A stretch of 64,000 nucleotides of DNA from Halorubrum rubrum (lineage in GTDB: Archaea; Halobacteriota; Halobacteria; Halobacteriales; Haloferacaceae), in NCBI RefSeq assembly GCF_024494685.1, contig NZ_JANHDM010000004.1, positions 62,001 through 126,000 on the forward strand. The letters run 5' to 3'. This document shows, piece by piece, positions 548 to 33,698 of this stretch (position 1 is the first letter of the stretch; every line of letters begins with the position of its first letter). Below the pieces are notes generated by a model that was not told the origin of the DNA, did no database searches, and worked only from the letters and a program-made list of their open reading frames with translations. A program made the position numbers and the translations under genes.

Positions 548-563
548 TTAGAGTGAATAACAA

Positions 564-767
564 ATGACGGAGATCTCGTTGGAAATACCACAAGAGCATA
601 TCGAGTACTGTGAGCAAGTCGTTGAAACGACAGAATTCGAAACGGTTGAGGAATATTTATCTTACGTTATTGAAGAAATAGCGATCGGTGTAGACTGTCA
701 TGAGGGCTCTCCTCATAGTATGCCGGATAACGTGTCTGATCAACTGGAGTCTCTCGGATATCTATAA
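564..767 (+). CDS. Small CopG/RHH-like protein with sulfatase-type C-terminal tail
   Basis: 67-residue protein starting at ATG 564, 16 nt after the preceding gene and in the same direction. The N-terminus is a short beta strand followed by two helices (MTEISLEIPQEHIEYC, then TEFETVEEYLSYVIEE), which looks like a ribbon-helix-helix or CopG fold. The C-terminus ends DQLESLGYL, a tail I associate with haloarchaeal sulfatase/phosphodiesterase-type proteins of glycan loci. The gene converges with the glycosyltransferase ending at 773. It may be a regulator or a small partner of glycan enzymes. The function is unknown. Confidence 0.65.
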   Translation: MTEISLEIPQEHIEYCEQVVETTEFETVEEYLSYVIEEIAIGVDCHEGSPHSMPDNVSDQLESLGYL

Positions 768-772
768 TTGTA

Positions 773-1960: not shown

Positions 1961-2033
1961 TGATTGTGTGTATATCCTTTTGGACTTTTACTCTTCAGTC
2001 ACGAACTGATTGTTGGTTTCCAGTGACATTGAA

Positions 2034-3260: not shown

Positions 3261-3387
3261 TTGGTAAAGATTTATCAGAATCCACCTAAAATTGTCGATT
3301 TGCTCTATCTATACGTCAATCAATTATCAAAAGTTATTATATGCCGTGTTCCGAAACTACTAATTTGTCAGAATTTAACTACAATGT
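3261..3387. promoter_or_regulatory. Divergent AT-rich promoter region
   Basis: 127-bp spacer between two divergent genes. A TATA-like stretch (TTATTATATG, about 3333-3342) points toward the gene at 3388, but about 45 nt upstream of its ATG, so that transcript would have a short leader. AT-rich boxes on the other strand could serve the polymerase gene. No clear operator repeat was seen. Confidence 0.4.
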
Positions 3388-4620
3388 ATGAATAGCCTAT
3401 TTCATCGGGTGATACACAAATATAAAAATGAAGGAATTTTACAGGTTCTTCAGTCTACTTTAGGATTTGGATGGAGGCAGATATCATTACCTATATTTCT
3501 AATTCTATATTTAATATCGAAAATAATACCTAAAAAAGATACAATTCACGTTTTTGGATATGGTGATAAAAACTCATTTACAGACAATTCTAAATTTATG
3601 TTTCTATATATTCACAACTGTGTGGAGGGTATAACGCCAGTATGGATTACAAAAAATAATGATCTTGCTCAAGAATTACGAAGTAATGGATTCCATGGTT
3701 ATACTTTTTGGTCGATTAGAGGCATCTATTATTCACTTCGATCGACTCTCGCATTTGTTACACATACTCGCCGAGATATTCCTTGGTGGTGGACTGGAGG
3801 CGCAACGATCGTTCGTTTAGGTCATGGTGTTCCTTTTAAAAAGTACCATTGGTCAAATGAGTCCGAATTAAAGGGAAGACCGATTAAAAAAGTATTGAAC
3901 AAATTTATCTTCTGGAATTATGATTATTCTATAGCTACCTCTTCGGAATATGTACCAAAAGTTGTGGAAGCAACGAATCTTGATCCAGAACGCGTTTTTG
4001 TGACGGGGTTACCCCGAATGGATATGTTCTATCGGAACTATCCTGGTCTCGAGATTGGAGTCAATAAAAAACTCATCTCAAAAATAAATTCAATAAATGG
4101 TACTACTTTGTTTTATTTCCCTACTTGGAGGGAGTCTGGACAAAATATAAGAAGCATTGTGACAGATGATGTGTGCGATAAATTAAAACAACAAAACATT
4201 CATTTATTTATAATTCCCCATCGTAATACAACTTTTGAGAGTATTGATGGAGATAATGTATATCTTGTCCAAAAATCTATGGATTTCTATCCTATTTTGG
4301 AAGAGATAGATGTATTTATGACTGACTATTCTTCTCTATTTTATGATTCTCTATATAACAGTACTCCAATAATTTTCTACCCATATGATATTACTGAATA
4401 TTTAGATGAGCGCGATCTGTTTTTTGAATATTCAAATGTTCCCGGCCATATCGCTGCCACGGAAGAAGAATTAATACAAATACTTTCGAACACTACTATT
4501 GCTACTCCTGATAACGAAAAATATTGGTTGAGATCTACATTTGAATATATTGATGGTAAGAACGCTCAACGGGTATTTTCTGAAATTTATGAGCGAGTCA
4601 ATTATCAACAAAATGATTAG
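3388..4620 (+). CDS. CDP-glycerol glycerophosphotransferase-like (TagB/TagF family) protein
   Basis: 410 residues. A hydrophobic segment near residues 30-48 follows a basic N-terminus, consistent with membrane association. The C-terminal half has the family hallmarks RLGHGVPFKK, TGLPRMDMFY, FYFPTWRES and VFMTDYSSLFYDSL, followed by PIIFYPYD. In bacteria this family transfers glycerol-phosphate (or a related polyol-phosphate) to teichoic acid or capsule precursors. Here it implies that a phosphorylated polyol or similar decoration is added to a surface glycan. It is among the most AT-rich genes in the window, suggesting recent transfer. Family assignment is good; the exact donor is unknown. 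Confidence 0.85.
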   Translation: MNSLFHRVIHKYKNEGILQVLQSTLGFGWRQISLPIFLILYLISKIIPKKDTIHVFGYGDKNSFTDNSKFMFLYIHNCVEGITPVWITKNNDLAQELRSNGFHGYTFWSIRGIYYSLRSTLAFVTHTRRDIPWWWTGGATIVRLGHGVPFKKYHWSNESELKGRPIKKVLNKFIFWNYDYSIATSSEYVPKVVEATNLDPERVFVTGLPRMDMFYRNYPGLEIGVNKKLISKINSINGTTLFYFPTWRESGQNIRSIVTDDVCDKLKQQNIHLFIIPHRNTTFESIDGDNVYLVQKSMDFYPILEEIDVFMTDYSSLFYDSLYNSTPIIFYPYDITEYLDERDLFFEYSNVPGHIAATEEELIQILSNTTIATPDNEKYWLRSTFEYIDGKNAQRVFSEIYERVNYQQND

Positions 4621-5002
4621 ATCCTTCGTCAAAGATATTTTTAAATGATATAGCAAATAATATAACTTAAATAACCAATGTGTCTGTTACGAACTCGATT
4701 CACCTTATCCCCGATCGACGATTTCGCCCTAGTTACGTTCATACGAACCCGCAAAAGTGGATCGGCAAAGAATGACATGTTACTTGTTCCCAGTGAGAAA
4801 TCTGTGTCAATCAGGAATCACTCATTACAGTTGGACTGGAGGCACAGTACTTTGAGCTAATGATAGGCCTGCATCACGAACCAAATGAGTGTACATTTAT
4901 TCTCTTGCTTCTATCTTCAAACCCAACGCTGATCCGTCGCTTCTACGGATTCAATAGAGTAGAATAATAAAATATATTATTTAGCCCACTATTAAACCAC
5001 CT
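4621..5002. other. Gene-poor AT-rich spacer
   Basis: 382 bp between two co-directional glycan genes. It contains a 60-codon open frame (4678-4860) that I cannot match to anything and that may be a transposase or gene remnant. A TATA-like stretch (AATATATTATTTAG, 4971-4984) lies about 20-30 nt upstream of the ATG at 5003 and probably drives that gene. Confidence 0.4.
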
Positions 5003-6214
5003 ATGAAAGTAGCATTTTTGACTTCTTGGTTCCCAAAATATTCTAAGACATTTATTATTAATCAAGTTGTATCTTTACTTGACCTTGGACATGATGTGAC
5101 GATTATCAGTTTAGGAGAGCCCGACCCTCCCGCAAACCATTCTATCGTTAATAACTATAACCTCAAAGAAAAAACATATTATATACCGAAGATTAATACA
5201 TATACTGGTGGCATCAAACAGTATGTTAAATTTGTACTTGAACACAAATCAATCTTAAGAATAATATCTGAAATAAAATATGGTAAGCAGAGTCCAGAAA
5301 GGTTAGCTGCTCAATCTGTTCTTCATGATCCAAATAAATTCGATGTCTTCCATGCCCATTTTGGTCCAACTGCGCGATGCTGGGATTTTCTTTCTAAAGA
5401 ACATCCAGATATACCCTTTGTAGCCACATATTATGGATATGATGTCACGAAACACCTTCACCCGGAAAATTACAACTATTATTCTCGGACAAATCACTGG
5501 GAATCAGTCGATTTAGCAATTGGAATCAGCGAGCATATTCGATCAAGGATGCTGATGGCTGGCTGCCCGGAAGAGATCACAACGACACTCCCGATCGGAA
5601 TTGATCCCGATCTTTTTCAGTTTTCACCATCAGACTACGATCCTAACGAGACACTCCGTTTGGTATCCACGTGTAGACACACCGGGAAGAAGGGAATTGA
5701 ATACGCTATCCGAGCGGTAAGCCAGGTCAAAAACGGAGGAGTCGATCTATCATACACTATCGCTGGTGACGGGGATCTAACACCGCAATACCGCGAGATC
5801 GCTTCGGAGGCCGGGATCTCAGATGAAATCGAATTTATCGGGAGAGTTCCACAAGAGCGTGTTTCAGAGCTGATGCAGGAAGCCCACCTTTACATACAAC
5901 CAAGCGTCACCACTTCTGACGGCGACATGGAGGGACAAGGACTCGTGTTTCAGGAGGCACAGGCTACTGGTACCCCGCCGATTACGACTTTCCACGATGG
6001 TATTCCCGAAGGAGTTCGACACGCCGAGACTGGTCGGTTAGCACCGGAACGAGATGTCTCCCGTCTCGCCGACGAAATAGAGTATTTTGTGAACAACCCT
6101 AAAGAGATAATTCGGTATACGCATCGTGGCCGAGAATGGGTCGAGTCGAAATATGACTACGCTAAACTTGGAAAACGACAGGAAGAGATCTACGAATCCC
6201 TACTGAGTAAGTGA
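5003..6214 (+). CDS. Glycosyltransferase family 4 with a compositional break
   Basis: 403 residues. The N-terminus MKVAFLTSWFPKYSKTFI is typical of the WcaL/colanic-acid-type GT4 group. The C-terminal domain has GIDPDLFQF, FIGRVPQERV and the donor-site block EGQGLVFQEAQATGTPPI. Base composition changes inside the gene: 5041-5100 has 18 G/C of 60, while 5881-5940 has 33 of 60, with the change near 5500-5560. That is about where the acceptor-binding domain ends and the donor-binding domain begins. The gene may therefore be a natural chimera of a transferred N-terminal domain and a resident C-terminal domain. It is convergent with the sugar-nucleotide operon. Confidence 0.87.
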   Translation: MKVAFLTSWFPKYSKTFIINQVVSLLDLGHDVTIISLGEPDPPANHSIVNNYNLKEKTYYIPKINTYTGGIKQYVKFVLEHKSILRIISEIKYGKQSPERLAAQSVLHDPNKFDVFHAHFGPTARCWDFLSKEHPDIPFVATYYGYDVTKHLHPENYNYYSRTNHWESVDLAIGISEHIRSRMLMAGCPEEITTTLPIGIDPDLFQFSPSDYDPNETLRLVSTCRHTGKKGIEYAIRAVSQVKNGGVDLSYTIAGDGDLTPQYREIASEAGISDEIEFIGRVPQERVSELMQEAHLYIQPSVTTSDGDMEGQGLVFQEAQATGTPPITTFHDGIPEGVRHAETGRLAPERDVSRLADEIEYFVNNPKEIIRYTHRGREWVESKYDYAKLGKRQEEIYESLLSK

Positions 6215-6227
6215 AGTCTGAGTGATT

Positions 6228-7160
6228 CTATAATTGCGTCTTAAAGTACTCGATAGACGTTTTCAGCCCATCGCCTAGAGGAACTTGAGGAGACCAGCCT
6301 AGTTCTCGCTGTGCCTTCGAGATGTCCGGTCTTCGAACTTGTGGATCTTGTGGTGGGAGTTCCTCATGTACGAGCCCGCTTTCACTCCCTGCGATGTTTA
6401 ACACGGATTCGGCCAGCTCATTTATTGTTCGTTCGTCGGGATTTCCGATGTTCACGGGGGATTGAACATCCGACTCCAGCAACGTAATGAGTCCACGAAT
6501 CATATCCGATACGTAACAAAAACTCCGAGTCTGCTCACCATCTCCGTACACGGTGAGATCCCTTCCGGTCAACGCTTGTTTCGCGAAATTCGGGATCACA
6601 CGGCCGTCATCGAGACGCATTCGTGGACCATATGTATTGAAGATACGAGCGACTCGAACATCGAGGTCATGTTTATCGCGATATGCCCGAACCAGAGATT
6701 CGCCGTATCGTTTCGACTCGTCGTAACACGATCGGGGGCCGTATGGATCTACATTCCCGCGATATTCCTCTGGTTGTGGATTTATTTCAGGATCCCCGTA
6801 TACCTCGCTCGTGGACGTGAACAGATATGTTGCATCTTTCTCCTTGGCGAGTCCGAGCGTCTTGTGTGTTCCGAGTGCACCAACCTTCAACGTCTTGATC
6901 GGATGATCCCGGTAGAACACCGGTGAAGCGAGGCTCGCTAGATGTAGAACGGCATCTAGTTCCCCAGAAATATGTATGAACTCCGTAACATCGTGATCAT
7001 AAAATGAGAATCTATCGTTCTCAAAAGCGTCGTCGAGGTTCTCCGTTCGACCGCTTACCTGATTGTCCATTCCGATGACTTCATATCCGTCGGCTAGCAA
7101 CTCATCGCAAAGGTGTGATCCGAGGAATCCTGCGGCACCGGTGACAAGGAGACGACTCAT
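6228..7160 (-). CDS. Extended SDR, UDP-glucuronate decarboxylase-like
   Basis: 310 residues from ATG 7158-7160; this start is chosen because the NAD-binding motif begins directly after it (VTGAAGFLGSHLCDEL) and the ATG overlaps the GalU stop as ATGA. The catalytic YxxxK motif is in YDESKRYGE, and ARIFNTYGPRM plus the product-specific block RSFCYVSDMIRG are typical of UDP-xylose synthase / UDP-glucuronate decarboxylase and close relatives. It would convert UDP-glucuronate to UDP-xylose (or act as an epimerase/dehydratase on a UDP-sugar) using NAD. It is the last gene of the operon flippase-GalU-SDR, so it supplies an activated sugar to the locus. Confidence 0.82.
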   Translation of the reverse strand: MSRLLVTGAAGFLGSHLCDELLADGYEVIGMDNQVSGRTENLDDAFENDRFSFYDHDVTEFIHISGELDAVLHLASLASPVFYRDHPIKTLKVGALGTHKTLGLAKEKDATYLFTSTSEVYGDPEINPQPEEYRGNVDPYGPRSCYDESKRYGESLVRAYRDKHDLDVRVARIFNTYGPRMRLDDGRVIPNFAKQALTGRDLTVYGDGEQTRSFCYVSDMIRGLITLLESDVQSPVNIGNPDERTINELAESVLNIAGSESGLVHEELPPQDPQVRRPDISKAQRELGWSPQVPLGDGLKTSIEYFKTQL

Positions 7161-8023
7161 TCGGCCCAATCTCCGAGCAGCGTCTTGACGGCTGCGTTGA
7201 TCTCGCCATTGTCGTATTTCAGTGCCAATTCGACATTTGCCTGTAGCCAAGACGGAATATTTCCGATATCGTAACGATCGCCATCGAGTTCCATACCACG
7301 TACCTCATCGAGCTTCCGGATCGCATCGGTGAGTTGTAACTCACCTCCGGCGCCCTTCCCGGTTGTTTCAAGTTTTTCGAAGATATCCGGTGTGAGGATA
7401 TATCGCCCAGTGATCGCGAGGTTTGAAGGTGCTTCTTCCTGCGATGGTTTTTCTACGAAATCGCTGACTGGAAAGCTCTCAGTAGTTGAATCCACTTCAT
7501 CAATATCCGCGACTCCGTACGAAGGAACATCATCCCACGGAACCCGTTCAAGCGAGAGAACAGAAGTTTCGTGTTCTTCTGCGGCCATAACAAGCGACTG
7601 AGTACACGGTGTTTCGTTCTTGATGATTGTATCGCCGAGTAGGAGTGCAAATGGTTCATCACCGACGTGCTTTTCAGCATACAGCACAGCGTCTCCCAAT
7701 CCTTCTCGTTCCTTCTGACGAACGTAATGAATGTCCGCGAGATCAGCGATGTCCCGAACTTGCTCGAGACGATCGAGTTTCCCGTCCGCTTCTAATTCCT
7801 CTTCAAGTTCGTACGATTTGTCAAAATGGCGCTCGATAGCTTGCTTTCCGCGTCCAGTAATGATCAGAATATCATCAATTCCGGCCTCAATAGCTTCTTC
7901 AACGACGTACTGGATCGTTGGTTTATCTAGGACTGGCATCATCTCCTTTGGCTGTGACTTGGTCACAGGAAGAAATCGGGTTCCGAACCCCGCAGCTGGA
8001 ATAACTGCTTTCGTTACTTTCAT
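7157..8023 (-). CDS. galU: UTP--glucose-1-phosphate uridylyltransferase
   Basis: 288 residues, normal for GalU. The nucleotidyltransferase signature AAGFGTRFLP is at residues 10-19 and is followed by TKSQPKEMMPVLDKP, the GalU-type lysine loop. Other conserved blocks are GLGDAVLYAEKHVG, LLLGDTI, FVEKP and GRYILTPDIFE. The enzyme makes UDP-glucose from UTP and glucose-1-phosphate in the cytoplasm. Its stop overlaps the ATG of the SDR gene by 4 bp, so the two are translationally coupled. A 209-bp AT-rich region upstream probably holds its own promoter. Confidence 0.93.
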   Translation of the reverse strand: MKVTKAVIPAAGFGTRFLPVTKSQPKEMMPVLDKPTIQYVVEEAIEAGIDDILIITGRGKQAIERHFDKSYELEEELEADGKLDRLEQVRDIADLADIHYVRQKEREGLGDAVLYAEKHVGDEPFALLLGDTIIKNETPCTQSLVMAAEEHETSVLSLERVPWDDVPSYGVADIDEVDSTTESFPVSDFVEKPSQEEAPSNLAITGRYILTPDIFEKLETTGKGAGGELQLTDAIRKLDEVRGMELDGDRYDIGNIPSWLQANVELALKYDNGEINAAVKTLLGDWAE

Positions 8024-8232
8024 GAATCGTCTGTTCTATACTCCGGGGGCTATGTATCTTTTATCATTAACTCGGAAGCAATCGTTGATCTTCTATGTGT
8101 AATATTTCATAAAATAGTAGAATATCATATAATACCTTGAGTTGAGCTACTATAACCATTATATATAGTATTCAAAATTGGATTTAATTGGTATCTAATG
8201 TATGTCTTCTCATAGTTCGAGTCGCATCCACT
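8024..8232. promoter_or_regulatory. AT-rich spacer, probable galU promoter
   Basis: 209 bp between the flippase stop and the galU start, on the minus strand. It has several TATA-like stretches (ATTATATATAG around 8158-8168, and AT-rich blocks at 8100-8140). No gene was found in it. It indicates that galU and the SDR gene can be transcribed separately from the flippase. Confidence 0.4.
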
Positions 8233-9681
8233 CTAAAATTGGGATATTCGATGCCAGATTATATCTAATGAAACATACCCGAAAATGACGTTAATTCCGA
8301 TGAACAGTACCAACCCCAACGGTGGGAATATGAGAAGCGAAACCAACGAGGAGATCTCTGTAATGGACACGATTGCGAGGAACACGACGGCGAACGCACC
8401 CTGCGCGAGTACGAAGGGAATTGTCCATCGGAGTGACACTACTTCGAACGGAGAGTAGAACCAGATACCGACGTTGCCGACGAACAGCATGACGTACGAG
8501 ATCGTTGTCCCGATCCCCGCCCCAATGATCCCGTATCGAGGGATCAATACGACGTTCAACAGGACGTTGAGCAGGAGGGCTCCGGCGGTCATCAGCTCCG
8601 TGTGTCTCACCCACCCGGTTGCCTGAAAGACGGGAACGATCACTCGGCTGACTCCAAAAAAGAACGTTCCTAAGATGAGCAATTGTAGGGTGTCTGCGGC
8701 AGCAACGTAATTCCCGCCGAAGTAGACCTGGAGAAACGGTTCGGCGAGAGCGAACAGCCCGACGCCGAACAGCGTCAGCGCCAGTACGCTGTATTTGATC
8801 CCGGTTTTGATCTGTTTGTTTATCTCTTCGATGTTGTCTTCCGCCCAGAGATTCGCCGTGTGCTGTAAAAACGCCATTTGAATGACCGACGGGACGAACC
8901 AGATCATCTCCGCGGGAACGATCGCGCTGTTGTACAGCGCCGTCGCCGTCGACGTTCGGAAGTACTCGACGAGGAGGATGTCCGCCTTGTATAGGAAGGC
9001 CGCACTCACCCCTCCAATCAGCTGAAACCCTCCGAACGTCGCTACTTCCCGTCCGTGTACTCTGATACTCCCCATCGAAGGGATCGAGAACTCGAAGTGC
9101 TTACGTACATACGCGATTCCGAGAACCCCGACAACGACGAAGGACACACTGTACGCCGCGAACAAGCCTTGTAGATCGTACCCGAGGTACGCCAACGTGA
9201 GCCCGATGACCACGTAGAACACTCGTCTTCCCACGTGGAGAATTTCGGCCACGTGTTCGCGCTGTTGTCCATAGAACGTGCCCCTTACGATGCTGAAAAT
9301 GTTTTCAAAGACCACCGCCAAAAGAAGGATCCACACAAACGAGACGTAGCGAGACGGAACGACCCCAACCAGCATGGCAATCGCAGCGGCTGATATCGCT
9401 ACGATCCCATATCCAACACTAATTACGAGCGATACCGAAACGATCTCGGATGCCGTTTTTTGCTCCGTTACGTTCTCGGCGATGATTTTCCGAGTCGCAT
9501 CGAAGAGTCCTCCTCTGGCAAGGAGAGCGAAGATCGAGAATCCGGCGAACACGCTGACGTACAATCCGTATTGTTCTTGAGAAATGATCCGAACTAAGAT
9601 CGGGGTGAATGCTAGGCTTATCAGCAGATTCGCCGCTTTTCCAGAAAAAATCGAAAATATCGATCGAAGAATGGTCGACAT
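8233..9681 (-). CDS. Polysaccharide flippase (Wzx/MATE-like)
   Basis: 482 residues with about 12-14 transmembrane helices. The N-terminus (SGKAANLLISLAFTPILVRIISQEQYGLYV as a region, residues 13-42) is the typical start of the polysaccharide-biosynthesis/flippase (MVF) family. Later blocks LLVEYFRTSTATALYN and PRYGIIGAGIGTTISY also fit. It would flip lipid-linked glycans to the outer face of the membrane, matching the polymerase and transferases in the same locus. It lies at the edge of the locus; downstream (rightward) the accessory island begins. Its GC content is closer to the genome average than that of the central locus genes. Confidence 0.9.
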   Translation of the reverse strand: MSTILRSIFSIFSGKAANLLISLAFTPILVRIISQEQYGLYVSVFAGFSIFALLARGGLFDATRKIIAENVTEQKTASEIVSVSLVISVGYGIVAISAAAIAMLVGVVPSRYVSFVWILLLAVVFENIFSIVRGTFYGQQREHVAEILHVGRRVFYVVIGLTLAYLGYDLQGLFAAYSVSFVVVGVLGIAYVRKHFEFSIPSMGSIRVHGREVATFGGFQLIGGVSAAFLYKADILLVEYFRTSTATALYNSAIVPAEMIWFVPSVIQMAFLQHTANLWAEDNIEEINKQIKTGIKYSVLALTLFGVGLFALAEPFLQVYFGGNYVAAADTLQLLILGTFFFGVSRVIVPVFQATGWVRHTELMTAGALLLNVLLNVVLIPRYGIIGAGIGTTISYVMLFVGNVGIWFYSPFEVVSLRWTIPFVLAQGAFAVVFLAIVSITEISSLVSLLIFPPLGLVLFIGINVIFGYVSLDIIWHRISQF

Positions 9682-19926: not shown

Positions 19927-21126
19927 TCACATCGATTCGGCTTCGATCGCATCCCGCGTTTCGAGGACGATGGTTGGATCGAGTGCTAACTCGTACTGGT
20001 AGTGAGCGCCACCTGCGCGTCCCTCGTTGTGTTCAGTCCGTTCGAGAAACCCCAACATGGTGAGATCGGCGAGATGGTTCTGGATACTCTTGAGCGTGGT
20101 GAGCGGGTCTTGCTGTCTCCCTTCAGCCACGCGGACGTATGCCTGCTGTACTTGCTTCGACTTGGCGGGCGTCGAGCCGCCGACTTCGAGTTTCGCGAGC
20201 GCTTCGAGGATCAATTGACCGTGCATGGTCTGATCACGCAGTTTGTTCTCGACGCGACCGCGCTGAACGCGATCGACTGCGACCTCGATGTGTTCGTCCG
20301 TGATCTCGCTGGCACCGTTCTCCTCGGCAACGTCGCCCCCCTCTCGGAGCAGGTCGATGGCTTGCCGTGCGCTTCCGGTGTCCTTTGCTGCGTTGGCCGC
20401 GGCGAGTTTGATCGCCGAATCGTCCCACGCGTCCTCGATCAACGCTTTCTCCGCTCGTGTCATGAGAATCGATCGAAGCTCGTCGGCATCGTACGGTGAG
20501 AACGCGATCTCTTTTTCCATCAGCGTATCCTTTACTTTCGGACTCAGCGAGGAACGGAACGCGTAGTTGTTGCTGATCCCGATGACGCCTACTCGCGAGG
20601 CGGTCAGATGATCGTTCGCGCGTGCTCGCGGGAGCTCATACAATAGTGTGTTCGGATCGGAGAGATGATCTATCTCGTCGAGGACGAACAGATACGTTCC
20701 ACCGTTCGAATCCATCTCCTCATAGAGTGTCTCTAGTGCGTGTGCCGTCGAATGGCCGGTCTCTGGAAACGGCTCGCGGTCATCTCTACGGATACTGTTG
20801 ATCAGTGCTCGAACCGTGCGATAGACCGTATCGTCGTTACAGTTCCGGAAATGGACGTGGAGATCGTCCGCGTCGTCTCGCCGCTTCACTTCAGCTTTGA
20901 GCGCGGTCATGATATACTCCGTGACCGCGGTCTTTCCGACCCCTGTCTTCCCGTAGATGAACACATTGGAAGGATTCCGGCCGAACAAGACGTCCTTGAG
21001 TGCGGACCGGAAGGCATCGATCTCGTCTTCGCGTTCGACGATCTCGTCCGGCTGGTACTCCTCCGAAAGAATGGCCTTGTTCTCGAAGAGCGTATCCGTG
21101 ATATCCGAAAAGAGATCTTCGCTCAT
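19927..21126 (-). CDS. Orc1/Cdc6-family replication initiator
   Basis: 399 residues, full length. The AAA+ core has Walker A GKTGVGKTAV (residues 59-68), Walker B LFVLDEIDHL and sensor 1 VIGISNN, with a sensor-2 region GSARQAIDLLREGG. The C-terminal winged-helix domain (about 300-395) would bind the ORB repeats. A TATA-like box (minus-strand AATTTATATA, 21159-21167) lies about 32 nt upstream. Haloarchaea carry several such initiators, many on plasmids or integrated elements, each next to its own origin. This one is surrounded by matching repeats, so it is the initiator of a local origin rather than an orphan. Confidence 0.93.
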   Translation of the reverse strand: MSEDLFSDITDTLFENKAILSEEYQPDEIVEREDEIDAFRSALKDVLFGRNPSNVFIYGKTGVGKTAVTEYIMTALKAEVKRRDDADDLHVHFRNCNDDTVYRTVRALINSIRRDDREPFPETGHSTAHALETLYEEMDSNGGTYLFVLDEIDHLSDPNTLLYELPRARANDHLTASRVGVIGISNNYAFRSSLSPKVKDTLMEKEIAFSPYDADELRSILMTRAEKALIEDAWDDSAIKLAAANAAKDTGSARQAIDLLREGGDVAEENGASEITDEHIEVAVDRVQRGRVENKLRDQTMHGQLILEALAKLEVGGSTPAKSKQVQQAYVRVAEGRQQDPLTTLKSIQNHLADLTMLGFLERTEHNEGRAGGAHYQYELALDPTIVLETRDAIEAESM

Positions 21127-23703: not shown

Positions 23704-24531
23704 GTGACGGACATGGACCTCCTCGTCGCGGTCCTCGCCGGGATCGTTCAGGGCGTCGTCGAGTGGCTGCCGGTCTCGAGCCAGGGGAACCTCGCGTTGT
23801 TCCTCACGTTCGTCGGCACCGAGCCGGAGGCCGCCCTCCAGCTCGCGCTCTTCTTACAGGTGGGGACGACGCTCTCGGCGGCGACGTACTACCGCGGGGA
23901 GATCCTGACCGCGCTGCGCGCGACACCCGGCTGGCGGCCCGCCGGCGCGTACGACGGCGACGCGGCGCTCGTCTCGTATCTCGTCCTCGCCAGTGCGATG
24001 ACCGGTCTGGTCGGGATCCCGCTGTACGTCTTCGCCGTGGACCTGGCGAGTCGGCTCACGGGCGGCGTCTTCATCGCCGTCATCGGCGTCCTGCTCCTGG
24101 TGACCGGCGTCCTGACGTACGCCTCCGAGTCGGTGTCGATGGGCGGGCGACACGATCCGACGCTCGTCGACTCGCTGCTCGTCGGGGCCGCCCAGGGCCT
24201 CGCGATCCTTCCGGGCATCTCTCGGTCCGGGATGACGGCGAGCACGCTGTTGTTCCGGAGCTACGACCCGCCGTCGGCGTTTCGGCTGTCCTTTCTGCTT
24301 TCGATCCCCGCGAGCCTCGGTGCGGCGGTCCTGACGCTTCTCGATGCCGGGGGACTTCCGGGGATCGACCCGACCGCGGCCGCAGTCGCGCTCGGAGTCA
24401 GCGCGGTCGTCGGCTACGCCACGATCGATGCGCTGATGCGGATCGTCGAGCGGGTCCCGTTCTGGGCCGTCTGTTTCGCGCTCGGGGGGATCGCGATCGT
24501 CGGCGGCGGCGTCGTCTCGGTCGTCGTGTGA
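23704..24531 (+). CDS. UppP/BacA-type undecaprenyl-diphosphate phosphatase family protein
   Basis: 275 residues, normal length, with about seven or eight membrane helices. The active-site motifs are present: residues 15-30 contain GVVEWLPVSSQGNLAL (family consensus E-F/W-LPISSxxH/N) and LPGISRSGMTAS lies near 175. It is expected to recycle polyprenyl (dolichyl-type) diphosphate carriers at the membrane, which would feed N-glycosylation and polysaccharide export. Start is GTG 23704; ATG 23713 is an alternative. The usual first-motif histidine is replaced by Asn (SSQGN), a variant seen in archaeal members. Confidence 0.88.
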   Translation: MTDMDLLVAVLAGIVQGVVEWLPVSSQGNLALFLTFVGTEPEAALQLALFLQVGTTLSAATYYRGEILTALRATPGWRPAGAYDGDAALVSYLVLASAMTGLVGIPLYVFAVDLASRLTGGVFIAVIGVLLLVTGVLTYASESVSMGGRHDPTLVDSLLVGAAQGLAILPGISRSGMTASTLLFRSYDPPSAFRLSFLLSIPASLGAAVLTLLDAGGLPGIDPTAAAVALGVSAVVGYATIDALMRIVERVPFWAVCFALGGIAIVGGGVVSVVV

Positions 24532-24810: not shown

Positions 24811-27800
24811 ATGACACGTGAGAACTCGCTTCGGATCGTCGCGATCGTTGCCGTTCTAACTATCGTCGTCAGTCTGGCCGGGATCGGGTTGGGGGCTTCT
24901 GTGGTGGATGCTGAATCATCTGATGAAGTTTATATAAACCAGACGGGATCTCCGACAGATATTGTTCCTGGAGATACTACTCATACCGTTCATGATATAC
25001 AAATTAATCAAAATAGTGATTATTCTGAAAATGAAAATGTCTACTTAGACATTGACCTTTCTAGAATCTCAACACATGGCGTAAACACATCATCTGCATA
25101 CATCGAAAATACAACAATACGAAATGGAGATCTTCTCAGTCAAGAAGAATATGTCTCTGATAATGGTAATAAGAGTCTCCGTCTGGTGATTGAACATTCC
25201 GGTAATGGGGATCCTATCTATGTCGATAGGATATTAATTGCTGGAATTGTTATAGATGCTGCTAATCCATATTCAAATGTTCAGTATTCTTTCGAAGTTG
25301 GTCGTAATAATAACAGTTCATTACGCAATTCTTTTTCGTCTACAAGTGACTCGATACTCTCTGAAAGATTTAATATCGCCGGAGGATCGTTCCAATTTAG
25401 AGATCAGGCAACTGGATCTCCTGACGAAGATGGGTTCACCACTCTTTCTGCTACAGTTGAGGATGTGGAAGCAAACGTAAATAGCACACTTGTTGTCGCT
25501 TTTGACGGAAAATATACTCGTATTGCGGGGATTAAATCTGTTTCACACGATGATCTTAATGGAGATAATGAGATCTCTATTAAATATCTTGAATCAAATG
25601 GTTTTCCAGGACCACATGCGATTTATCTCGTACCAGAAAGTCGATTGAGCAGTGAAGACTATAGTGCTGGAGATGAATTGCCAGAAGCAGCTTCAGAATT
25701 CTATATTGATAAACACGTGAGTAAGTCATTATATGGATCAATAAATTTTGAGAACATCTCCGCTGATACGGCAATAACAGACAACATCACTATCTCAAAT
25801 ACACTATTAGATGATGAATACGGCGGTTCTACTCCCTATATTGTTACTCTCCATCCGGTCTCGAATGATGGATCTGTTGTAACTGACGAATATATTGGAT
25901 CATCACAAATACTCACCGGGAATCAAGAAGATGTTATAATTGAATTGAAAAACAAATACGACGAAGAAACTCATCTGTCACAAAGTAACAAATATACAGC
26001 CGTTATGCGCCTTACTGATGATGGAACTGATGTTGGAGATCCTGTTTCTCTTGGATCTTATCCGATATTACAGAATTCAGACTTTAATCGGCAATTTGTA
26101 CAGAATGGTATTTCCGATAGTGGCTTAATATCTATCAATAAATCTGAAAAAGCAACCTCTGCTACGAAACATTCGTTCACTCGTACAGAGTATCTGAATA
26201 CAACGATATACGCTGGAGGTCTCGTTGCTTTTGAAGTACCTAGCGACGAATCAGACCGTATTGAGTTATATCGTGAATCAGAGCACACGACATCTGTTCT
26301 CCAGGGAACAGAATCAACAAGCAATAGTTCGAGTCTCGTCTATTTCAATACTTCTCAGCTCCAAACCGGCGATTACTTTCTCCTTGGTGGCGGCTTTGAT
26401 GAAAACTCATCTTTCAGCGTAATCAGTAGTCGTGATCAATATTCTAACCTAACTGTTGTTCCTAACTCAACTACTCTTGGAAACAAAACTGAATTCGAAT
26501 TAGTGGCAGATGCCAACACAACCAACCTCGCGATCACGGAGTCGAACACGGATACACAGATAGCCACCGCGAGCGTTACGACGCCACGTGAAGAACCGAC
26601 CACGCTCCGTTTCAACACGTACGCGGCGGGCAACCCCGATCTCGCCGGCGATCTCTTCACGATCGAGGAGCCGGGAACGATCGAGTCGGTCACGACTCCG
26701 GAAATCGACGGATCGATTCCACCGGGAGAGTACGAGATCACGGCGACTGCGGCCCCGAACGGACCGATCGACACCGCGACCGTGAGGCTTCGAAACCGAT
26801 CGACGAACGGCCTCTCGCTGTATTCGACCGCGGAAACCGCCGCCGCCGACTTCTCCGCGCCCGAGACGGTCTCGGACGCGATCGCGAACGAGACGCTCAC
26901 ATCCACGGCGACGGTTACCGACAACGACACCGTCGTCTACGCGATCAACGCCACCGGACTCGACGGCTACACCTCGGTCCGCGACCCGGCCCTCACGACC
27001 GGGTCCGATCTCGATCGACTCGCCGGACTCGAGTTCGCGATCTCGAACGCGACGGGTTCCGGATCGACCGCGACGCCCGTAGCGACCGCGAACGGCACGA
27101 CGGTCCTCCCACACGCGACGGGGCTGTTCCTCGTCGGCAACGCCAACGAGACGCTCGGCGAGACCGTCGCGGCGACCGGTGAAACCGACCTCGCGGCGAC
27201 GTTCGACGTGGTCGACGACCGCCTCCGCACGGCCGCCGGATCGAACGCCACCCACGCCGGTGTCGCCCCGTTCACGTACGCCCGAAATACGACCGAACCC
27301 GCCGGAACCGGTGGCTCCGACGAAACCGACGAGTCGGACGGTTCCACCGACTCCGGCAACGTCACCGACTCCGGCAACGTCACCGACTCCGACGGATCCG
27401 ACGCCGAATCGTCGACTGGAACGACGACCGACGGGACCGCGTCGTCCGACACTACGGACGGAGGCGACGATGAAACGACCACCGACGGCGATGGTACCGC
27501 GGATCAACCCGGACGGACGACCACCGGAACCGACGAGAACACTAACACGACTGACACAACCGAAACCAGCGACGGGACGGACGGCGTAAGCGATACGTCG
27601 ACTACGGAGACCGATCCGACCGACGGAGAGGCGGTCGATGAGGCGACCGTCACCGACGGGACCGCTGACGATACGGTCGCCGCCGATGACGGCAGTGACG
27701 GGTCCGACTCCGGTGGGTCCGAATCGGCCGACGCCGGCGGAGGGACCGAAACGGGTGGTACACCCACCGGTGCCGGAGATTCAACCGATCCCGGCTCGAC

Positions 27801-28590
27801 GAGTCCCGATACCAGCGGCGACGGAGGCAACGGCGGGAGTGGCGGTGGGGGTAGTGAGAGCGGGGGCGAGGGTAGTGGCGGTACGAGCGCTGCTGGCGGA
27901 AGTGGCGGCAGTGGTGGAGGCGGTAGTGGTGGAGGCGGTAGTGGTGGAAGCGGTAGTGGTGGAGGCGGGGACAGCAGTGGAGGCGGCGGGGGCGTAGGAG
28001 AGAGTAGCGGCGTCGGACGTGGCGATGGCGCCGGCGATCGATCCGGTCCCGGTGACGGACCGGGGTCGGGATCGAACGCCGACGCCGGCGACTCGACTCC
28101 CGCGACCGACCGCGATGAAAGCGTGTCCGGCGTCGACGACCCGACGACCCGATCGAGTTCCGCGGACGACGGCGGGGGCGTTCGGCGCGCGGATCCCGAT
28201 CGAGCGTCCTCGATTCGTGCCGCCGAGGAGCGTGCCCTCCGTGACCGCAAGGAGATCGGTCCCCGACCGGTGGCCGATCTGAACGCTCCCGACGAGGCCG
28301 AGTACGTCTCGCGCTTCACGGCCGTCGAGCGGGCGTCATCGCGCGACGCGACGAAAGCGAGCGATCGCGACGGCCCCCCGACCGAGGCTCCGGCGACCGA
28401 GGAGGCGGCCGCCGCTGATGGGTCCCCCGCGTCGGAGGGGGATCGCTCCGAGCGGCCGCCCACCTTCGAGGAGGCCCCGCTGCGCTCGACCGCCTACGAC
28501 GTTCCGGGCTTCGACGTCGGTACCGCGCTGGTCGCGCTCGTCGCGGCGAGCCTGCTCGCCGGCCGCCGGCGAACGGGGTCGAAGGGGTAG
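24811..28590 (+). CDS. Large PGF-CTERM surface glycoprotein with AT-rich ectodomain
   Basis: 1259 residues. A signal peptide (about 1-34, ending GASVVDA) is followed by an ectodomain rich in N-x-S/T sequons. Two segments resemble DUF7282-type beta domains: FQFRDQATGSPDEDGFTTL (near 195) and YGSINFENISADTAIT through EYIGSSQILTGNQEDVIIEL (near 310-380). Then come a Thr/Asp-rich stalk (about 830-1010) and a Gly/Ser-rich low-complexity stretch. The C-terminus has the archaeosortase signal: PGFDVGTALVALVAASLLAG then RRR. ArtA would cut there and attach a lipid. Composition is mosaic: 25681-25740 has 21 G/C of 60, 27001-27060 has 39 of 60, with sharp switches near 24915 and 26520. Confidence 0.87.
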   Translation: MTRENSLRIVAIVAVLTIVVSLAGIGLGASVVDAESSDEVYINQTGSPTDIVPGDTTHTVHDIQINQNSDYSENENVYLDIDLSRISTHGVNTSSAYIENTTIRNGDLLSQEEYVSDNGNKSLRLVIEHSGNGDPIYVDRILIAGIVIDAANPYSNVQYSFEVGRNNNSSLRNSFSSTSDSILSERFNIAGGSFQFRDQATGSPDEDGFTTLSATVEDVEANVNSTLVVAFDGKYTRIAGIKSVSHDDLNGDNEISIKYLESNGFPGPHAIYLVPESRLSSEDYSAGDELPEAASEFYIDKHVSKSLYGSINFENISADTAITDNITISNTLLDDEYGGSTPYIVTLHPVSNDGSVVTDEYIGSSQILTGNQEDVIIELKNKYDEETHLSQSNKYTAVMRLTDDGTDVGDPVSLGSYPILQNSDFNRQFVQNGISDSGLISINKSEKATSATKHSFTRTEYLNTTIYAGGLVAFEVPSDESDRIELYRESEHTTSVLQGTESTSNSSSLVYFNTSQLQTGDYFLLGGGFDENSSFSVISSRDQYSNLTVVPNSTTLGNKTEFELVADANTTNLAITESNTDTQIATASVTTPREEPTTLRFNTYAAGNPDLAGDLFTIEEPGTIESVTTPEIDGSIPPGEYEITATAAPNGPIDTATVRLRNRSTNGLSLYSTAETAAADFSAPETVSDAIANETLTSTATVTDNDTVVYAINATGLDGYTSVRDPALTTGSDLDRLAGLEFAISNATGSGSTATPVATANGTTVLPHATGLFLVGNANETLGETVAATGETDLAATFDVVDDRLRTAAGSNATHAGVAPFTYARNTTEPAGTGGSDETDESDGSTDSGNVTDSGNVTDSDGSDAESSTGTTTDGTASSDTTDGGDDETTTDGDGTADQPGRTTTGTDENTNTTDTTETSDGTDGVSDTSTTETDPTDGEAVDEATVTDGTADDTVAADDGSDGSDSGGSESADAGGGTETGGTPTGAGDSTDPGSTSPDTSGDGGNGGSGGGGSESGGEGSGGTSAAGGSGGSGGGGSGGGGSGGSGSGGGGDSSGGGGGVGESSGVGRGDGAGDRSGPGDGPGSGSNADAGDSTPATDRDESVSGVDDPTTRSSSADDGGGVRRADPDRASSIRAAEERALRDRKEIGPRPVADLNAPDEAEYVSRFTAVERASSRDATKASDRDGPPTEAPATEEAAAADGSPASEGDRSERPPTFEEAPLRSTAYDVPGFDVGTALVALVAASLLAGRRRTGSKG

Positions 28591-28833: not shown

Positions 28834-29049
28834 TTGACGAACGACCGGATATATCGCGGATCGGGGTGTCTCTATCGCACTTCCTTAGCTGATCGTCTAT
28901 TTTTGAATCTGTTTTGGGCTCGTTTTTGACTGAACGTAGATTGTGATAAACCGTACCAATCCCTTATAGATAATTACCTTATATTCCCTAATGTGTGTAC
29001 GATGGTTCCTACCCATATCAGGGTTATTCCTTTAACCCATGATCCGTGA

Positions 29050-29054
29050 GGAGG
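29050..29054 (+). promoter_or_regulatory. Shine-Dalgarno GGAGG before gltB
   Basis: GGAGG (in GAGGAGGTG) lies 3 nt before ATG 29058, closer than the usual 5-9 nt. It supports that ATG rather than GTG 29046. An inverted repeat GGGTTA-ttcctt-TAACCC (29021-29038) lies just upstream. Confidence 0.5.
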
Positions 29055-29057
29055 TGT

Positions 29058-32000
29058 ATGACCAAGTCACGTAGTACCATCCCCGAGCCGGGGACGACTC
29101 GGGACGACCGCGACGCGGGGCTCGCCTCCCCGACCGACGACCGCTCGAACTGCGGTATCGGCGGCGTCATCGACCTCGACGGCGCGCCCGCTCACGACAC
29201 CGTACGCGACGCCGTCCGCCTCTTGGAGAACCTCGAACACCGGGGGACGACCGGCGCGGAGGAGAACACCGGCGACGGGGCCGGGATCATGGTCGCGCGG
29301 CCCGACGAGTTCTTCGCGGCGGTCGTCGACGCCGACCTCCCCGAGGAGTACGCCGTCGGCTCCGTCTTCATGCCGCCGGAGCCGGGCGTACAAGCCGAGA
29401 TCCACGACGTCATCGCCGAGGTGCTCTCCGTGTACGGCTTGGAGGTGCTCGCCTGGCGGGACGTCCCGACCGACAACGGCGACCTCGGCGAGACCGCGCT
29501 CGACTCGGAGCCCCACGTCGCTCAGCTGTTCGTCGCGCCGGTCGAGGGGGCCGGACTCGCCGAGCGGTTCACCGATCCGGACGCCGACCCCGACGCCGAT
29601 CCCGACCTGCTCGGGTTCGACCGCGCGCTGTACGCCGCCCGTCGCGAGATCGAGAACGTCGTGGGCGACGTCGACGGCGCGGGGCGCTTTTACGTCTGCT
29701 CGTTCGACCGCCAGCGCGTCGTGTACAAGGGACTTCTCAAGGGCTCACAGCTCGCCGAGTACTACCCGGATCTTCGAGACGAGCGGTTCGCGAGCTACGT
29801 CGCGTTGGTCCACGCCCGCTTCTCGACGAACACGCTCGGCGCGTGGCACCTCGCGCATCCGTACCGCAACGTGGTCCACAACGGCGAGTTCAACACGATC
29901 CGCGGGAACGTGAACTGGATGCGCGCCCGCGAGAACGACCTGGACCACCCGGCGTTCGGCGCGGAGCTCGAGACGATCCGCCCGGTGATCGACGACCCGA
30001 ACCAGTCCGACACCGCCAGCCTCGACAACGCGGTCGAGCTCCTCTTACAGACCGGCCGCGACCTCCCGCACGTCCTGCGGATGCTCGTTCCCGAGGCGTT
30101 CCGCGACGACGACCTCATGGCCGCGGAGCGCGCGGACTTCTACGACTACCACGCCTCGCTCGTCGAGCCGTGGGACGGTCCCGCGCTCGTCATCGGCTTC
30201 GACGGCGACCGCGTCGCGGGCGTGCTCGACCGCAACGGGCTCCGGCCCTGCCGCTACGAGGTCACGACCGAGAACCGGCTCGTCGTCGGCAGCGAGGTCG
30301 GCGCGCTCCCGACCGACGCCGCGGACGTGACGCGCCGCGGCCGCCTCCAGCCCGGCGAGATCTTCGTCGCCGACCCCGAGGAGGGCCGGATCGTTCCCGA
30401 CGACGAAGTGTTCGACGAGCTCACCGACGAGAGGTACGGCGAGTGGGTCGACGACGGACAGACGGCGCTCGACGACCTCGTCGGCGAGGACGCGGAGGCG
30501 ACGACGGACGCCGACTCGGCGACGGACGAGGGCCCGGCGGACGAGGACCGCACCGTCCGCGCGTACCAGGCCGCCTTCGGCTACACCACGGACTCGCTGA
30601 ACCACCTCGTGGAGCCGATGGCCGAGGCGGGGAAGGACCCCGTCGGGTCGATGGGCGACGACACGCCGCTGTCGGTACTCGCCGACGTCGACCGGCCGCT
30701 CTTCACCTACTTCAAACAGCTGTTCGCGCAGGTGTCGAACCCGCCGATCGACTACATCCGCGAGGAGCTCGTCACCTCGCTCGAGTCCCGGATCGGCAAC
30801 CAGCGCAACCTGCTCGCGGAGACGCCCGAGCACGCCCGCCAGATCGTCGCCGACTCTCCCGTCCTGTCGAACGTCGAGACGGCTGCGCTGAAGGACCTCG
30901 ACGGCGATACGGGCTTCTCCGCCGAGACCGTCGACATCACCTACGACCGCGGCACGTCGCTCACCGACGCCGTCACCCGGATCCGCCGGGAGGCGTCCGC
31001 CGCGATCGAGGCGGGCGCGGACGTGGTCGTGCTCTCGGACCGGGCGATCGGTCCGGACCGGCTCGCGGTGCCGAGCCTGCTCGTCACCGGCGCGGTTCAC
31101 CACCACCTCGTGCGCAACGGGCTCCGGAACCGCGCGGGACTCGTCGTCGAGTCCGGCGAGCCGCACGAGGTCCACCACCTCGCCACGCTCGTCGGCTACG
31201 GGGCGGACGCGGTCGACCCGTACCTCGCGTACGCCTCCATCGCCGACGTGGTTGCCGGCCCGGACGGCGCGGACGAGGCTGACGCGCTCGCCGCCTACCG
31301 CGGCGCGCTGGAGGACGGCCTCCTGAAGACGATGGCGAAGATGGGGATCTCGACGGTCGAGTCCTACCAGGGCGCACAGATCTTCGAGGCGGTCGGGCTC
31401 GACTCCGGGCTCGTCGGCGAGTTCTTCGAGGGCACCGAGATCCGCACCGAGGGGATCGGGCTCGAGGAGATCGAGGACGACCTCCGGACCCGCCACGCGA
31501 TGGCCTTCGGCGTCGACCCCGAACTCGAGACGGTCGGCGAGTACGAGAACCGTTCGTCGGGCGTCCATCACGGCTGGAACCCGCAGACGGTCGGAACGCT
31601 CCAGCAGGCGGTCCGGAGCGGCGACTACGAGCAGTACGGCGAGTTCGCCGACCTGGTCAACGACCAGTCCGAGACGCTCCAGACGCTGCGCGGACTCTTA
31701 GAGTTCGACTCCGACCGCGACCCGGTCCCGGTCGAGGAGGTGGAGCCCGTCGAGTCGATCGTCGAGCGCTTCTCGACGGCCGCGATGAGCCTCGGGAGCC
31801 TCTCGCCGGAGGCCCACGAGAACAACGCGATCGCGATGAACCGGCTGGGCGCGAAGTCCAACACCGGCGAGGGCGGCGAGCCGCCCGAGCGGTTCGACAC
31901 CGAGAAGGAGTGTACCGTGAAACAGGTCGCCTCCGGGCGCTTCGGCGTCACCGCGGAGTACCTCGCGAGCGCGGACGAGCTCCAGATCAAGATGGCACAG

Positions 32001-33698
32001 GGGTCGAAGCCGGGCGAGGGCGGCCACCTCCCCGGCGAGAAGGTCAACGAGATGATCGCCCACGTCCGGTGTTCCACGCCCGGCGTCGGGCTCATCTCCC
32101 CGCCACCGCAACACGACATCTACTCGATCGAGGACCTGAAACAGCTCATCTTCGATCTGAAGGCGGCGAACCCCGCCGCCGACGTCAACGTGAAGCTCGT
32201 CTCGGAGGCGGGGATCGGCACCATCGCGGCGGGCGTCGCGAAGGCGAACGCCGACGTGGTCCACGTCTCCGGCCACTCCGGCGGGACCGGAGCGTCGCCG
32301 AAGACGTCGATCAAGAACGCGGGGCTCCCGTGGGAGCTGGGGCTCGCGGAGGCGAATCAGATGCTTCGCGCGACCGGGCTGCGCGACCGGATCCGGGTGG
32401 CGGCCGACGGCGGGCTCAAGACCGGCCGCGACGTGGCCGTCGCCGCCGCGCTCGGCGCGGAGGAGTACGTCTTCGGTACGGCCTCGCTCGTCACCTCCGG
32501 CTGCGTGATGGCCCGGCAGTGTCACGAGAACACCTGCCCCGTCGGCGTCGCCACCCAGCGCGAGGACCTCAGACAGCGGTTCCCCGGCCAGCCCGACCAC
32601 GTGATCAACTACATGACGTTCATCGCTCAGGAGCTGCGCGAGCTCATGGCCGAGCTCGGGTTCACGGAGCTCGAGGAGTTCGTCGGCCGGCCCGACCTGT
32701 TGGCCCAGCGCGAGACCGACCACGAGAAGGCGAGCCACCTCGACCTCTCGGCGGTGATCGCCGACCCTGCCGGCGACTCCCGCACCAAGACGCGCGCACA
32801 GACGCACGCCGGCATCGAGTCGCTGCTCGACTGGGACCTGATCGAGGAGGCGTCGCCCGCCATCGAGGACGGGACGCCCGTCGCGCTCACCCGCGACATC
32901 GACAACGTCGACCGCGCGGTCGGCGCGACGCTCTCGAACCGCGTCGTCTCCGAACACGGCGGCGAGGGGCTCGCGGACGACACCGTCACCTGTCGGTTCG
33001 ACGGGCACGCGGGACAGAGTTTCGGCGCGTTCCTCGCGCGCGGGATCACGATGGAGCTCGCCGGCGCGGCGAACGACTACGTCGGCAAGGGGCTCTCCGG
33101 CGGGCGGATCGTGATCTCGACCCCCGAGGACGCGGGCTACGACCCGGCCGAGAACGTCGTCGCCGGCAACGTCTGTCTCTACGGCGCGACCGCGGGCGAG
33201 ACGTACGTCAACGGCGTCGCCGGCGAGCGCTTCGGCGTCCGCAACTCGGGCGTGAAAGCCGTCGTCGAGGGGCTCGGAGACCACGGCTGTGAGTACATGA
33301 CCGGCGGCGTCGTCGCCGTGCTCGGCGACACCGGCCGCAACTTCGCGGCCGGGATGTCCGGCGGCGTCGCGTACGTGTACGACCCCGACGACCGGCTCGA
33401 CGACCGGATCAACCGCGGGATGGTGTCGCTCTCGCGCGACCTCGACGCCAGCGACGAGGCGATGCTCCGCCGGCTCGTCGAGAACCACCGGGCGTACACC
33501 GACAGCGATCGCGCCGCCGAGCTGCTCGACGACTGGGAGGCCACGCTCTCGGACTTCGTGCGGGTCTTCCCCGACGCGTACGCCGACGTGATCGCCGAGG
33601 GCACGGGCACCGACGTGCGCGAGGAGCCGCCCGCGCCGGCCGACGCCGCGCCCGCTGCCGCCGCCGACACGACCGGGCAGGTCTCGAGCGGCGACTGA
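29058..33698 (+). CDS. gltB: Glutamate synthase large subunit
   Basis: 1546 residues, full GltB length. Domain order: class II glutamine amidotransferase (CGIGGVIDLDG with the nucleophile Cys near residue 32, NLEHRGTTGAEENTGDGAG), central domain, FMN-binding synthase domain (GSLSPEAHENNAIAMNRLGA; GEGGHLPGEKV; VSGHSGGTGASP), iron-sulfur cysteines (CVMARQCHENTCPVGV) and the C-terminal GXGXG beta-helix. It transfers the glutamine amide to 2-oxoglutarate, making two glutamates. No small (GltD) subunit gene is adjacent, so it probably uses ferredoxin or a distant partner. About 30 residues precede the catalytic Cys; they would have to be removed to expose it. Confidence 0.95.
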   Translation: MTKSRSTIPEPGTTRDDRDAGLASPTDDRSNCGIGGVIDLDGAPAHDTVRDAVRLLENLEHRGTTGAEENTGDGAGIMVARPDEFFAAVVDADLPEEYAVGSVFMPPEPGVQAEIHDVIAEVLSVYGLEVLAWRDVPTDNGDLGETALDSEPHVAQLFVAPVEGAGLAERFTDPDADPDADPDLLGFDRALYAARREIENVVGDVDGAGRFYVCSFDRQRVVYKGLLKGSQLAEYYPDLRDERFASYVALVHARFSTNTLGAWHLAHPYRNVVHNGEFNTIRGNVNWMRARENDLDHPAFGAELETIRPVIDDPNQSDTASLDNAVELLLQTGRDLPHVLRMLVPEAFRDDDLMAAERADFYDYHASLVEPWDGPALVIGFDGDRVAGVLDRNGLRPCRYEVTTENRLVVGSEVGALPTDAADVTRRGRLQPGEIFVADPEEGRIVPDDEVFDELTDERYGEWVDDGQTALDDLVGEDAEATTDADSATDEGPADEDRTVRAYQAAFGYTTDSLNHLVEPMAEAGKDPVGSMGDDTPLSVLADVDRPLFTYFKQLFAQVSNPPIDYIREELVTSLESRIGNQRNLLAETPEHARQIVADSPVLSNVETAALKDLDGDTGFSAETVDITYDRGTSLTDAVTRIRREASAAIEAGADVVVLSDRAIGPDRLAVPSLLVTGAVHHHLVRNGLRNRAGLVVESGEPHEVHHLATLVGYGADAVDPYLAYASIADVVAGPDGADEADALAAYRGALEDGLLKTMAKMGISTVESYQGAQIFEAVGLDSGLVGEFFEGTEIRTEGIGLEEIEDDLRTRHAMAFGVDPELETVGEYENRSSGVHHGWNPQTVGTLQQAVRSGDYEQYGEFADLVNDQSETLQTLRGLLEFDSDRDPVPVEEVEPVESIVERFSTAAMSLGSLSPEAHENNAIAMNRLGAKSNTGEGGEPPERFDTEKECTVKQVASGRFGVTAEYLASADELQIKMAQGSKPGEGGHLPGEKVNEMIAHVRCSTPGVGLISPPPQHDIYSIEDLKQLIFDLKAANPAADVNVKLVSEAGIGTIAAGVAKANADVVHVSGHSGGTGASPKTSIKNAGLPWELGLAEANQMLRATGLRDRIRVAADGGLKTGRDVAVAAALGAEEYVFGTASLVTSGCVMARQCHENTCPVGVATQREDLRQRFPGQPDHVINYMTFIAQELRELMAELGFTELEEFVGRPDLLAQRETDHEKASHLDLSAVIADPAGDSRTKTRAQTHAGIESLLDWDLIEEASPAIEDGTPVALTRDIDNVDRAVGATLSNRVVSEHGGEGLADDTVTCRFDGHAGQSFGAFLARGITMELAGAANDYVGKGLSGGRIVISTPEDAGYDPAENVVAGNVCLYGATAGETYVNGVAGERFGVRNSGVKAVVEGLGDHGCEYMTGGVVAVLGDTGRNFAAGMSGGVAYVYDPDDRLDDRINRGMVSLSRDLDASDEAMLRRLVENHRAYTDSDRAAELLDDWEATLSDFVRVFPDAYADVIAEGTGTDVREEPPAPADAAPAAAADTTGQVSSGD

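Follow-up and report, generated by a model that had tools for sequence, protein, structure and literature searches.

The surface protein gene and its composition border

The window analysed here is the whole stretch of 64,000 nucleotides from Halorubrum rubrum (positions 62,001 to 126,000 of contig NZ_JANHDM010000004.1, assembly G000). At positions 24811–28590, on the forward strand, one uninterrupted frame encodes a PGF-CTERM surface protein of 1259 amino acids. The gene, its parts, its neighbours and other genes of the window are as follows.

146–9681: AT-rich cluster of glycan and cell-envelope genes, including glycosyltransferase-like genes
3388–4620, in this cluster: TagF-like glycerophosphotransferase
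6228–7250, in this cluster: sugar-nucleotide dehydratase/epimerase
7157–8023, in this cluster: GalU
8233–9681, in this cluster: polysaccharide flippase
19927–21126, − strand: replication initiator of the orc1/cdc6 family, a few kb upstream of the surface protein gene
23704–24531, + strand: upstream neighbour of the UppP/BacA family; left flank
24811–28590, + strand: whole surface protein gene; the product runs from a signal peptide through the type-A ectodomain, the conserved stalk and a low-complexity S/T/D/E/G linker to the PGF-CTERM
24811–24912, + strand: putative signal-peptide region of 34 codons, GC-rich, judged by look
24911–26514, + strand: swappable AT-rich ectodomain, type A (AT change points 24908–26525), without clear sequence match to type B
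26521–27240, + strand: conserved GC-rich stalk domain, common to carriers of A and B (alignment A3, 20 rows)
27286–28470, + strand: low-complexity linker rich in S/T/D/E/G, from the translation
28498–28572, + strand: PGF-CTERM archaeosortase signal, residues 1230–1254 (TIGR04126, at cut-off)
29046–33698, + strand: gltB, for the large subunit of glutamate synthase, next downstream; serves as right flank and as marker for the tree

The PGF-CTERM anchor of the original prediction was only just confirmed, TIGR04126 scoring 24.5 bits against a cut-off of 24.5. The archaeosortase family TIGR04125 was found above cut-off in the same genome and in all six others tried (7/7), and two marks of a PGF-CTERM substrate, the C-terminal domain and an archaeosortase A in the same genome, are thus present. 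No Pfam family matched the whole window protein, and searches of Pfam and NCBIfam gave no clear family for either type of ectodomain, the best for that of the window being DUF7282, below cut-off. The S-layer surface-glycoprotein signal peptide, TIGR04207, by which a canonical S-layer glycoprotein is recognised, was not found in the window protein; its sole match in the same genome lay elsewhere (C20:31679) and fell below cut-off.

A maximum-likelihood fit of two borders placed an AT-rich segment of about 1.6 kb, in frame, at positions 24908–26525, with a GC content of 0.381 inside and 0.686 outside; when the flanks were fitted separately the segment was 24907–26562. Third-position GC (GC3), measured in 30-codon windows, went from 0.67 to 0.07–0.43 inside the segment and to 0.70–0.93 beyond it. 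The homology borders against neighbours of the other ectodomain type lie at about 24911 and 26514, close to the composition borders, and the change of composition is therefore sharp. The original prediction had described an AT-rich centre between GC-rich ends, without loss of frame and with borders at 24915 and 26520, and had named a gradual change as evidence against itself; the description held and the change was not gradual.

Two types of ectodomain at one locus

Matches to the stalk (window 26521–27300) came from 24 of 39 genomes and from 5 of the 17 genera, and a stalk profile matched 47 of the 52 genomes of the genus Halorubrum, which include many named species; sampling was one genome per species throughout. 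The loci examined were the window and 46 orthologous loci. The surface protein gene is followed by gltB in 40 of these 47 and lies away from it in G001, G060, G061 and G066, while in G010, G013 and G056 the view of the neighbourhood is limited by contig ends or masking. Among the five genomes of the genus without a stalk match, G002 carries type A on a broken contig, G017 has a type-B fragment at a contig end, and the contigs of G012 and G050 stop just upstream of gltB. In the fifth, G041 (L173), the surface protein gene is absent and uppP and gltB nearly abut, the match to the window ending at uppP and resuming just before gltB. Both neighbours are in place, and the surface protein is therefore dispensable. 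Assemblies often break at or beside this gene (G001, G002, G003, G007, G009, G010, G012 and G017), perhaps because of the repetitive linker or the change of composition.

When all ectodomains were compared with one another, they fell into two groups, A and B, without clear mutual similarity. Group profiles classified 45 loci, 25 as A and 20 as B and never as both, with no third type among the 45; in the other two of the 47 (G001 and G060) the contigs carry no ectodomain. The ectodomain is partial in G003, G006, G007, G009 and G056, where it is cut short by the edge of a contig or by masking, and in G006 by a stop codon. This last case (L041/L145, Hrr. yunnanense) is a type-A ectodomain broken by one TAG codon, which may mark a pseudogene, read-through or a sequencing error. 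Comparison of the A and B profiles gave a probability of 9% over 106 columns near the C-ends, where a remote common domain is possible.

Among 392 genomes of the order, 34 matched A and 20 matched B, most matches beyond the genus being weak and partial, and none of the 392 held both full types. The closest type-A relatives outside the genus match only part of type A. Within it, the deep-branching genomes G066 and G061 carry A and B respectively, both AT-rich. In another family, a frame of 991 amino acids at about 3181–6153 of L185 (G031, a genome of roughly 50% GC) contains repeated stretches that match type A in its middle part.

Comparison of close relatives that differ in type delimits the exchanged unit. 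Between G015 (A) and G020 (B) the flanks are mostly 92–100% identical per 100 nt and the core about 38%, as expected of unrelated sequences; identity ends within the signal peptide and picks up again at the stalk. The same contrast was seen between G013 (Hrr. halodurans, B) and both G000 and G018 (A), and between G011 (B) and G014 (A). Flank identity reaches 95–98% where neighbours differ in type, and the signal-peptide region (24811–24912) is retained between such relatives. In all 13 A/B pairs tried, the homology and AT borders agreed within 67 nt in the first-named member, which places the exchanged unit in the window at about 24911–26514. These comparisons support an in-frame exchange of the exposed segment with its ends conserved, and dissimilar A and B sequences occupy one locus between homologous flanks, as in an idiomorph. 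The original prediction had suggested looking among orthologues for swapped central segments with conserved ends, and such segments were found.

Whether the exchange takes place within a cell is a separate matter. Antigenic variation had been raised as a possibility in the original prediction; if it drew on silent cassettes or on a diversity-generating element, it would likewise place a variable centre between conserved ends. The window's own genome, with one type-A match, no type-B match and one DNA match, speaks against antigenic variation in this strict sense, and A and B are fixed forms, not mosaics; we regard this explanation as very improbable. Silent cassettes were rejected as a source, G000 holding no donor cassettes. 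Collections of phages, viral contigs and plasmids yielded no copies matching type A, type B or the stalk, and cassettes carried by viruses or plasmids were rejected as well.

AlphaFold models of the two ectodomains had mean pLDDT values of 78.5 (A) and 81.8 (B) and took the form of strings of beta-rich domains. The first-ranked Foldseek match of type A was the Haloferax volcanii S-layer protein (7ptp_A; E 4.1e-13, with a low TM of 0.23). VIA-align to the same structure gave Z 6.7 for type A and Z 10.1 for type B, for which it stood at rank 34, and most top structural matches for both types were other Ig-like proteins. The prediction for both ectodomains is a string of beta-sandwich domains of the Ig-like kind. 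A sequence search of the PDB gave nothing for B and, for A, a single weak match to fibronectin (E 0.67). N-glycosylation sequons exceeded those in shuffled sequences in the two proteins tested (17 against 9.2, and 26 against 11.3). Together, the Ig-like models and the enriched sequons make surface exposure of the ectodomain likely, which falls short of proving an S-layer role.

The ectodomain is AT-rich in 45 of the 45 loci with ectodomain sequence, GC3 being 0.22–0.51 as against 0.68–0.95 in the stalk of the same gene. In 37 genes compared for all three regions, mean GC3 was 0.317 in the ectodomain, 0.861 in the stalk and 0.938 in gltB; the ectodomain means were 0.322 for type A and 0.311 for type B. 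Recurrence of the same border in all 45 orthologues puts the AT-rich segment beyond chance. Alleles of one type differ at up to about 0.7 of their residues, yet all are AT-rich, which argues for a lasting state and against a fresh import. Distant stalk relatives (L022–L031) have no comparable AT core, except for a patchy one in L030.

These results bear on the reading of the AT-rich segment as foreign DNA recently brought into this strain. A sharp in-frame break of composition is what such an import would produce, and the original prediction had taken AT-richness as its mark while accepting that the same AT-rich centre everywhere would speak against it. That is what the 45 orthologues showed. 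The window's allele moreover groups with those of G018, G046 and G059, no copies were matched in phages, viral contigs or plasmids, and relatives outside the genus match type A only partly. Import has next to nothing left in its favour and was rejected as the main reading; what stands of the earlier proposal of replacement by foreign DNA is the in-frame swap with conserved ends (G015/G020 and the 13 A/B pairs), and what falls is the foreign origin.

A different account of the composition derives AT-richness directly from the encoded protein or from codon selection (a product rich in Asn, Ser, Ile and Lys and N-glycosylated, or slow codons that serve export) and does not treat it as a side effect of suppressed recombination. 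It concerns only the cause of AT-richness and is compatible with the dimorphism. The unrelated A and B sequences are both AT-rich and sequons are enriched, as it would have it, and the S-layer genes of G000, G018, G043, G048 and G020 also have a low-GC3 first half. That slope is, however, milder and gradual, without a sharp border: in these canonical S-layer genes (L200–L203 and L205, five of six loci, L204 being omitted because the frame chosen there looks wrong) GC3 climbs from about 0.5–0.7 in the first half to 0.8–0.9 near the end. At our locus the border is abrupt and coincides with the homology border. Fourfold sites in the ectodomain are AT-rich too (GC4 0.19–0.39), and amino-acid choice therefore does not account for the composition; relatives of part of type A are encoded in GC-rich DNA in G383 and G223. 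We consider a direct effect of protein or codons possible, though less likely than not. Ectodomain GC3 did not track gltB GC3 (rho 0.22, p 0.19). Polarised fourfold sites of the ectodomain gave 297 AT-to-GC and 148 GC-to-AT changes in 13 overlapping triples, which could mean slow amelioration; a mirror excess in gltB (79 against 602) suggests that the test is biased by parsimony, and we draw no support from it.

Ectodomain type and species ancestry

Mapped onto a DNA tree of gltB from 40 species, ectodomain type needs 11 changes (10–12 over bootstrap trees), of which at least nine are forced by well-supported branches, and a one-change solution occurred in none of 200 bootstrap trees. A quicker gltB tree gave 12 changes. 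Shuffling the labels on the gltB tree gave a mean of 13.3 changes, 72 of 500 shuffles being as low as the observed 11, and on the stalk tree 14 changes compared with 15.0 for shuffled labels. These counts show that type scarcely follows phylogeny as read from gltB, being distributed near-randomly over species; gltB is the only marker used outside the surface protein gene, lies adjacent to it and may itself recombine. Type switches between sister species on the gltB tree in G015/G020, G058/G021, G044/G045 and G000/G043, the last being the window's genome (A) and its gltB sister Hrr. cibi (B).

Within a type the pattern is different. Ectodomain distance tracks gltB distance, with Spearman coefficients of 0.55 for A (n=20) and 0.80 for B (n=17), and none of 999 Mantel permutations gave as high a correlation. 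The ectodomain trees of each type repeat species clades. Type A falls into the groups G000/G018/G046/G059, G004/G008/G057, G014/G019/G040/G052 and G015/G045/G051/G058/G062/G065/G067, and type B into G013/G043, G049/G053, G005/G011/G047/G048/G054 (G048 being presumably Hrr. lacusprofundi) and a ten-member group that includes G016, G020, G021 and G022.

Type near-random over species, together with allele trees that follow clades, is what an old two-form polymorphism would leave. The main rival is repeated exchange among close relatives, which would leave much the same picture. On that account the cassette passes horizontally between related Halorubrum, the incoming type replacing the other by way of the conserved flanks, and the two types need never have coexisted for long within a species. 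The 11 changes on the gltB tree, several of them between sister species, fit such exchange, and the borders suit recombination in the flanks. Among 326 same-type pairs, however, not one was closer in the ectodomain than in the stalk or gltB, so that no recent cassette transfer is seen among the sampled species; because evolution is faster in the ectodomain than in its flanks, only recent transfers would show up in this comparison. The agreement of within-type allele trees with species clades likewise tells against exchange, which we judge to be the less probable account, with perhaps a modest share of the probability.

A two-form surface locus and its known counterparts

We favour an ancient allelic dimorphism, shared across species, in which the ectodomain is a swappable cassette, and would give this reading a probability of roughly 0.6. 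Two marks of such a dimorphism were found: there are only two forms, deeply diverged, and both occur in several species clades, the allele trees within each form following species. One PGF-CTERM surface protein, encoded at a constant position ahead of gltB in most Halorubrum, has the same export signal, stalk and anchor throughout and an ectodomain that is either A or B. Both forms would have been maintained together since early in the genus and passed through speciations. Homologous recombination from flank to flank would replace the entire core in one step, as a unit, because A and B cannot pair. The same recombination would homogenise the flanks as far as the core, and we propose that this uncouples type from flank and keeps the border sharp.

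What maintains the two types is probably balancing selection that acts on recognition at the cell surface, frequency-dependent and favouring the rarer form. Virus adsorption ranks first and cell–cell recognition second among the candidate interactions. S-layer proteins are named as receptors for haloarchaeal tailed viruses in PMC10544981, and surface variation is interpreted as virus evasion in PMC6011602 and PMC4535781. Escape from viruses by swapping the ectodomain, a role also raised in the original prediction, is possible. AT-richness would be the mark of a segment long under a substitution regime unlike that of the adjacent DNA. Perhaps A and B, unable to recombine with each other, have escaped whatever keeps the genome GC-rich, and loss of GC-biased conversion is a possible cause. 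One experimental study of Haloferax found nothing to indicate that conversion is directed by GC content (PMC8223754).

If the dimorphism is real, the locus would be an archaeal example of trans-species polymorphism, one in which the base composition changes exactly where exchange stops. It would offer a clean test of what balances alternative cell surfaces, whether viruses or cell–cell recognition, and of whether loss of recombination alone can turn a stretch of a GC-rich genome AT-rich.

Fungal mating-type idiomorphs are unrelated sequences at one locus between homologous flanks, mutually exclusive and retained across species. The Halorubrum locus shares with them mutually exclusive, unrelated sequences between homologous flanks and trans-species retention; its products differ in being surface proteins, not transcription factors. 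A more speculative reading, which we hold to be unlikely, would make A and B an archaeal idiomorph, that is, compatibility types of a surface recognition protein (haloarchaeal cell fusion might, for instance, favour unlike or like types). Balancing selection would have held the two near-equal from the origin of the genus onwards, and their AT-rich core would be recombination-suppressed like a mating-type locus.

Titles and abstract openings in the literature, mostly without subscription papers, included none describing this locus or such a dimorphism in archaea. Merozoite surface proteins of Plasmodium falciparum (PMC10919680) resemble it in having exactly two deeply diverged forms of one surface-protein domain that apparently do not recombine with each other. 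The Halorubrum locus differs from them in being archaeal, in involving whole ectodomains without detectable common sequence in about 45 species, and in its base-composition border; no paralogue donor was found for it. S-layer glycoproteins of Haloferax (PMC5867893) are also haloarchaeal surface proteins of two very divergent types. There, whole genes are split by clade, whereas here the ectodomain alone is swapped, between fixed borders, and type is near-random. Surface-protein variation is likewise found in the S-layer of Halorubrum lacusprofundi (54% identity between strains; PMC6011602) and in GI1 of Haloquadratum walsbyi (PMC4535781), where it is tied to recombination or virus pressure. 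Those cases lie at the level of genes or islands with many variants, in contrast to the cassette described here, which comes in strictly two forms, has conserved ends and is set off by an AT border. Haloarchaeal surface variation is usually cast as open-ended diversity of islands or S-layers, and a strict two-form ectodomain throughout a genus departs from that picture.
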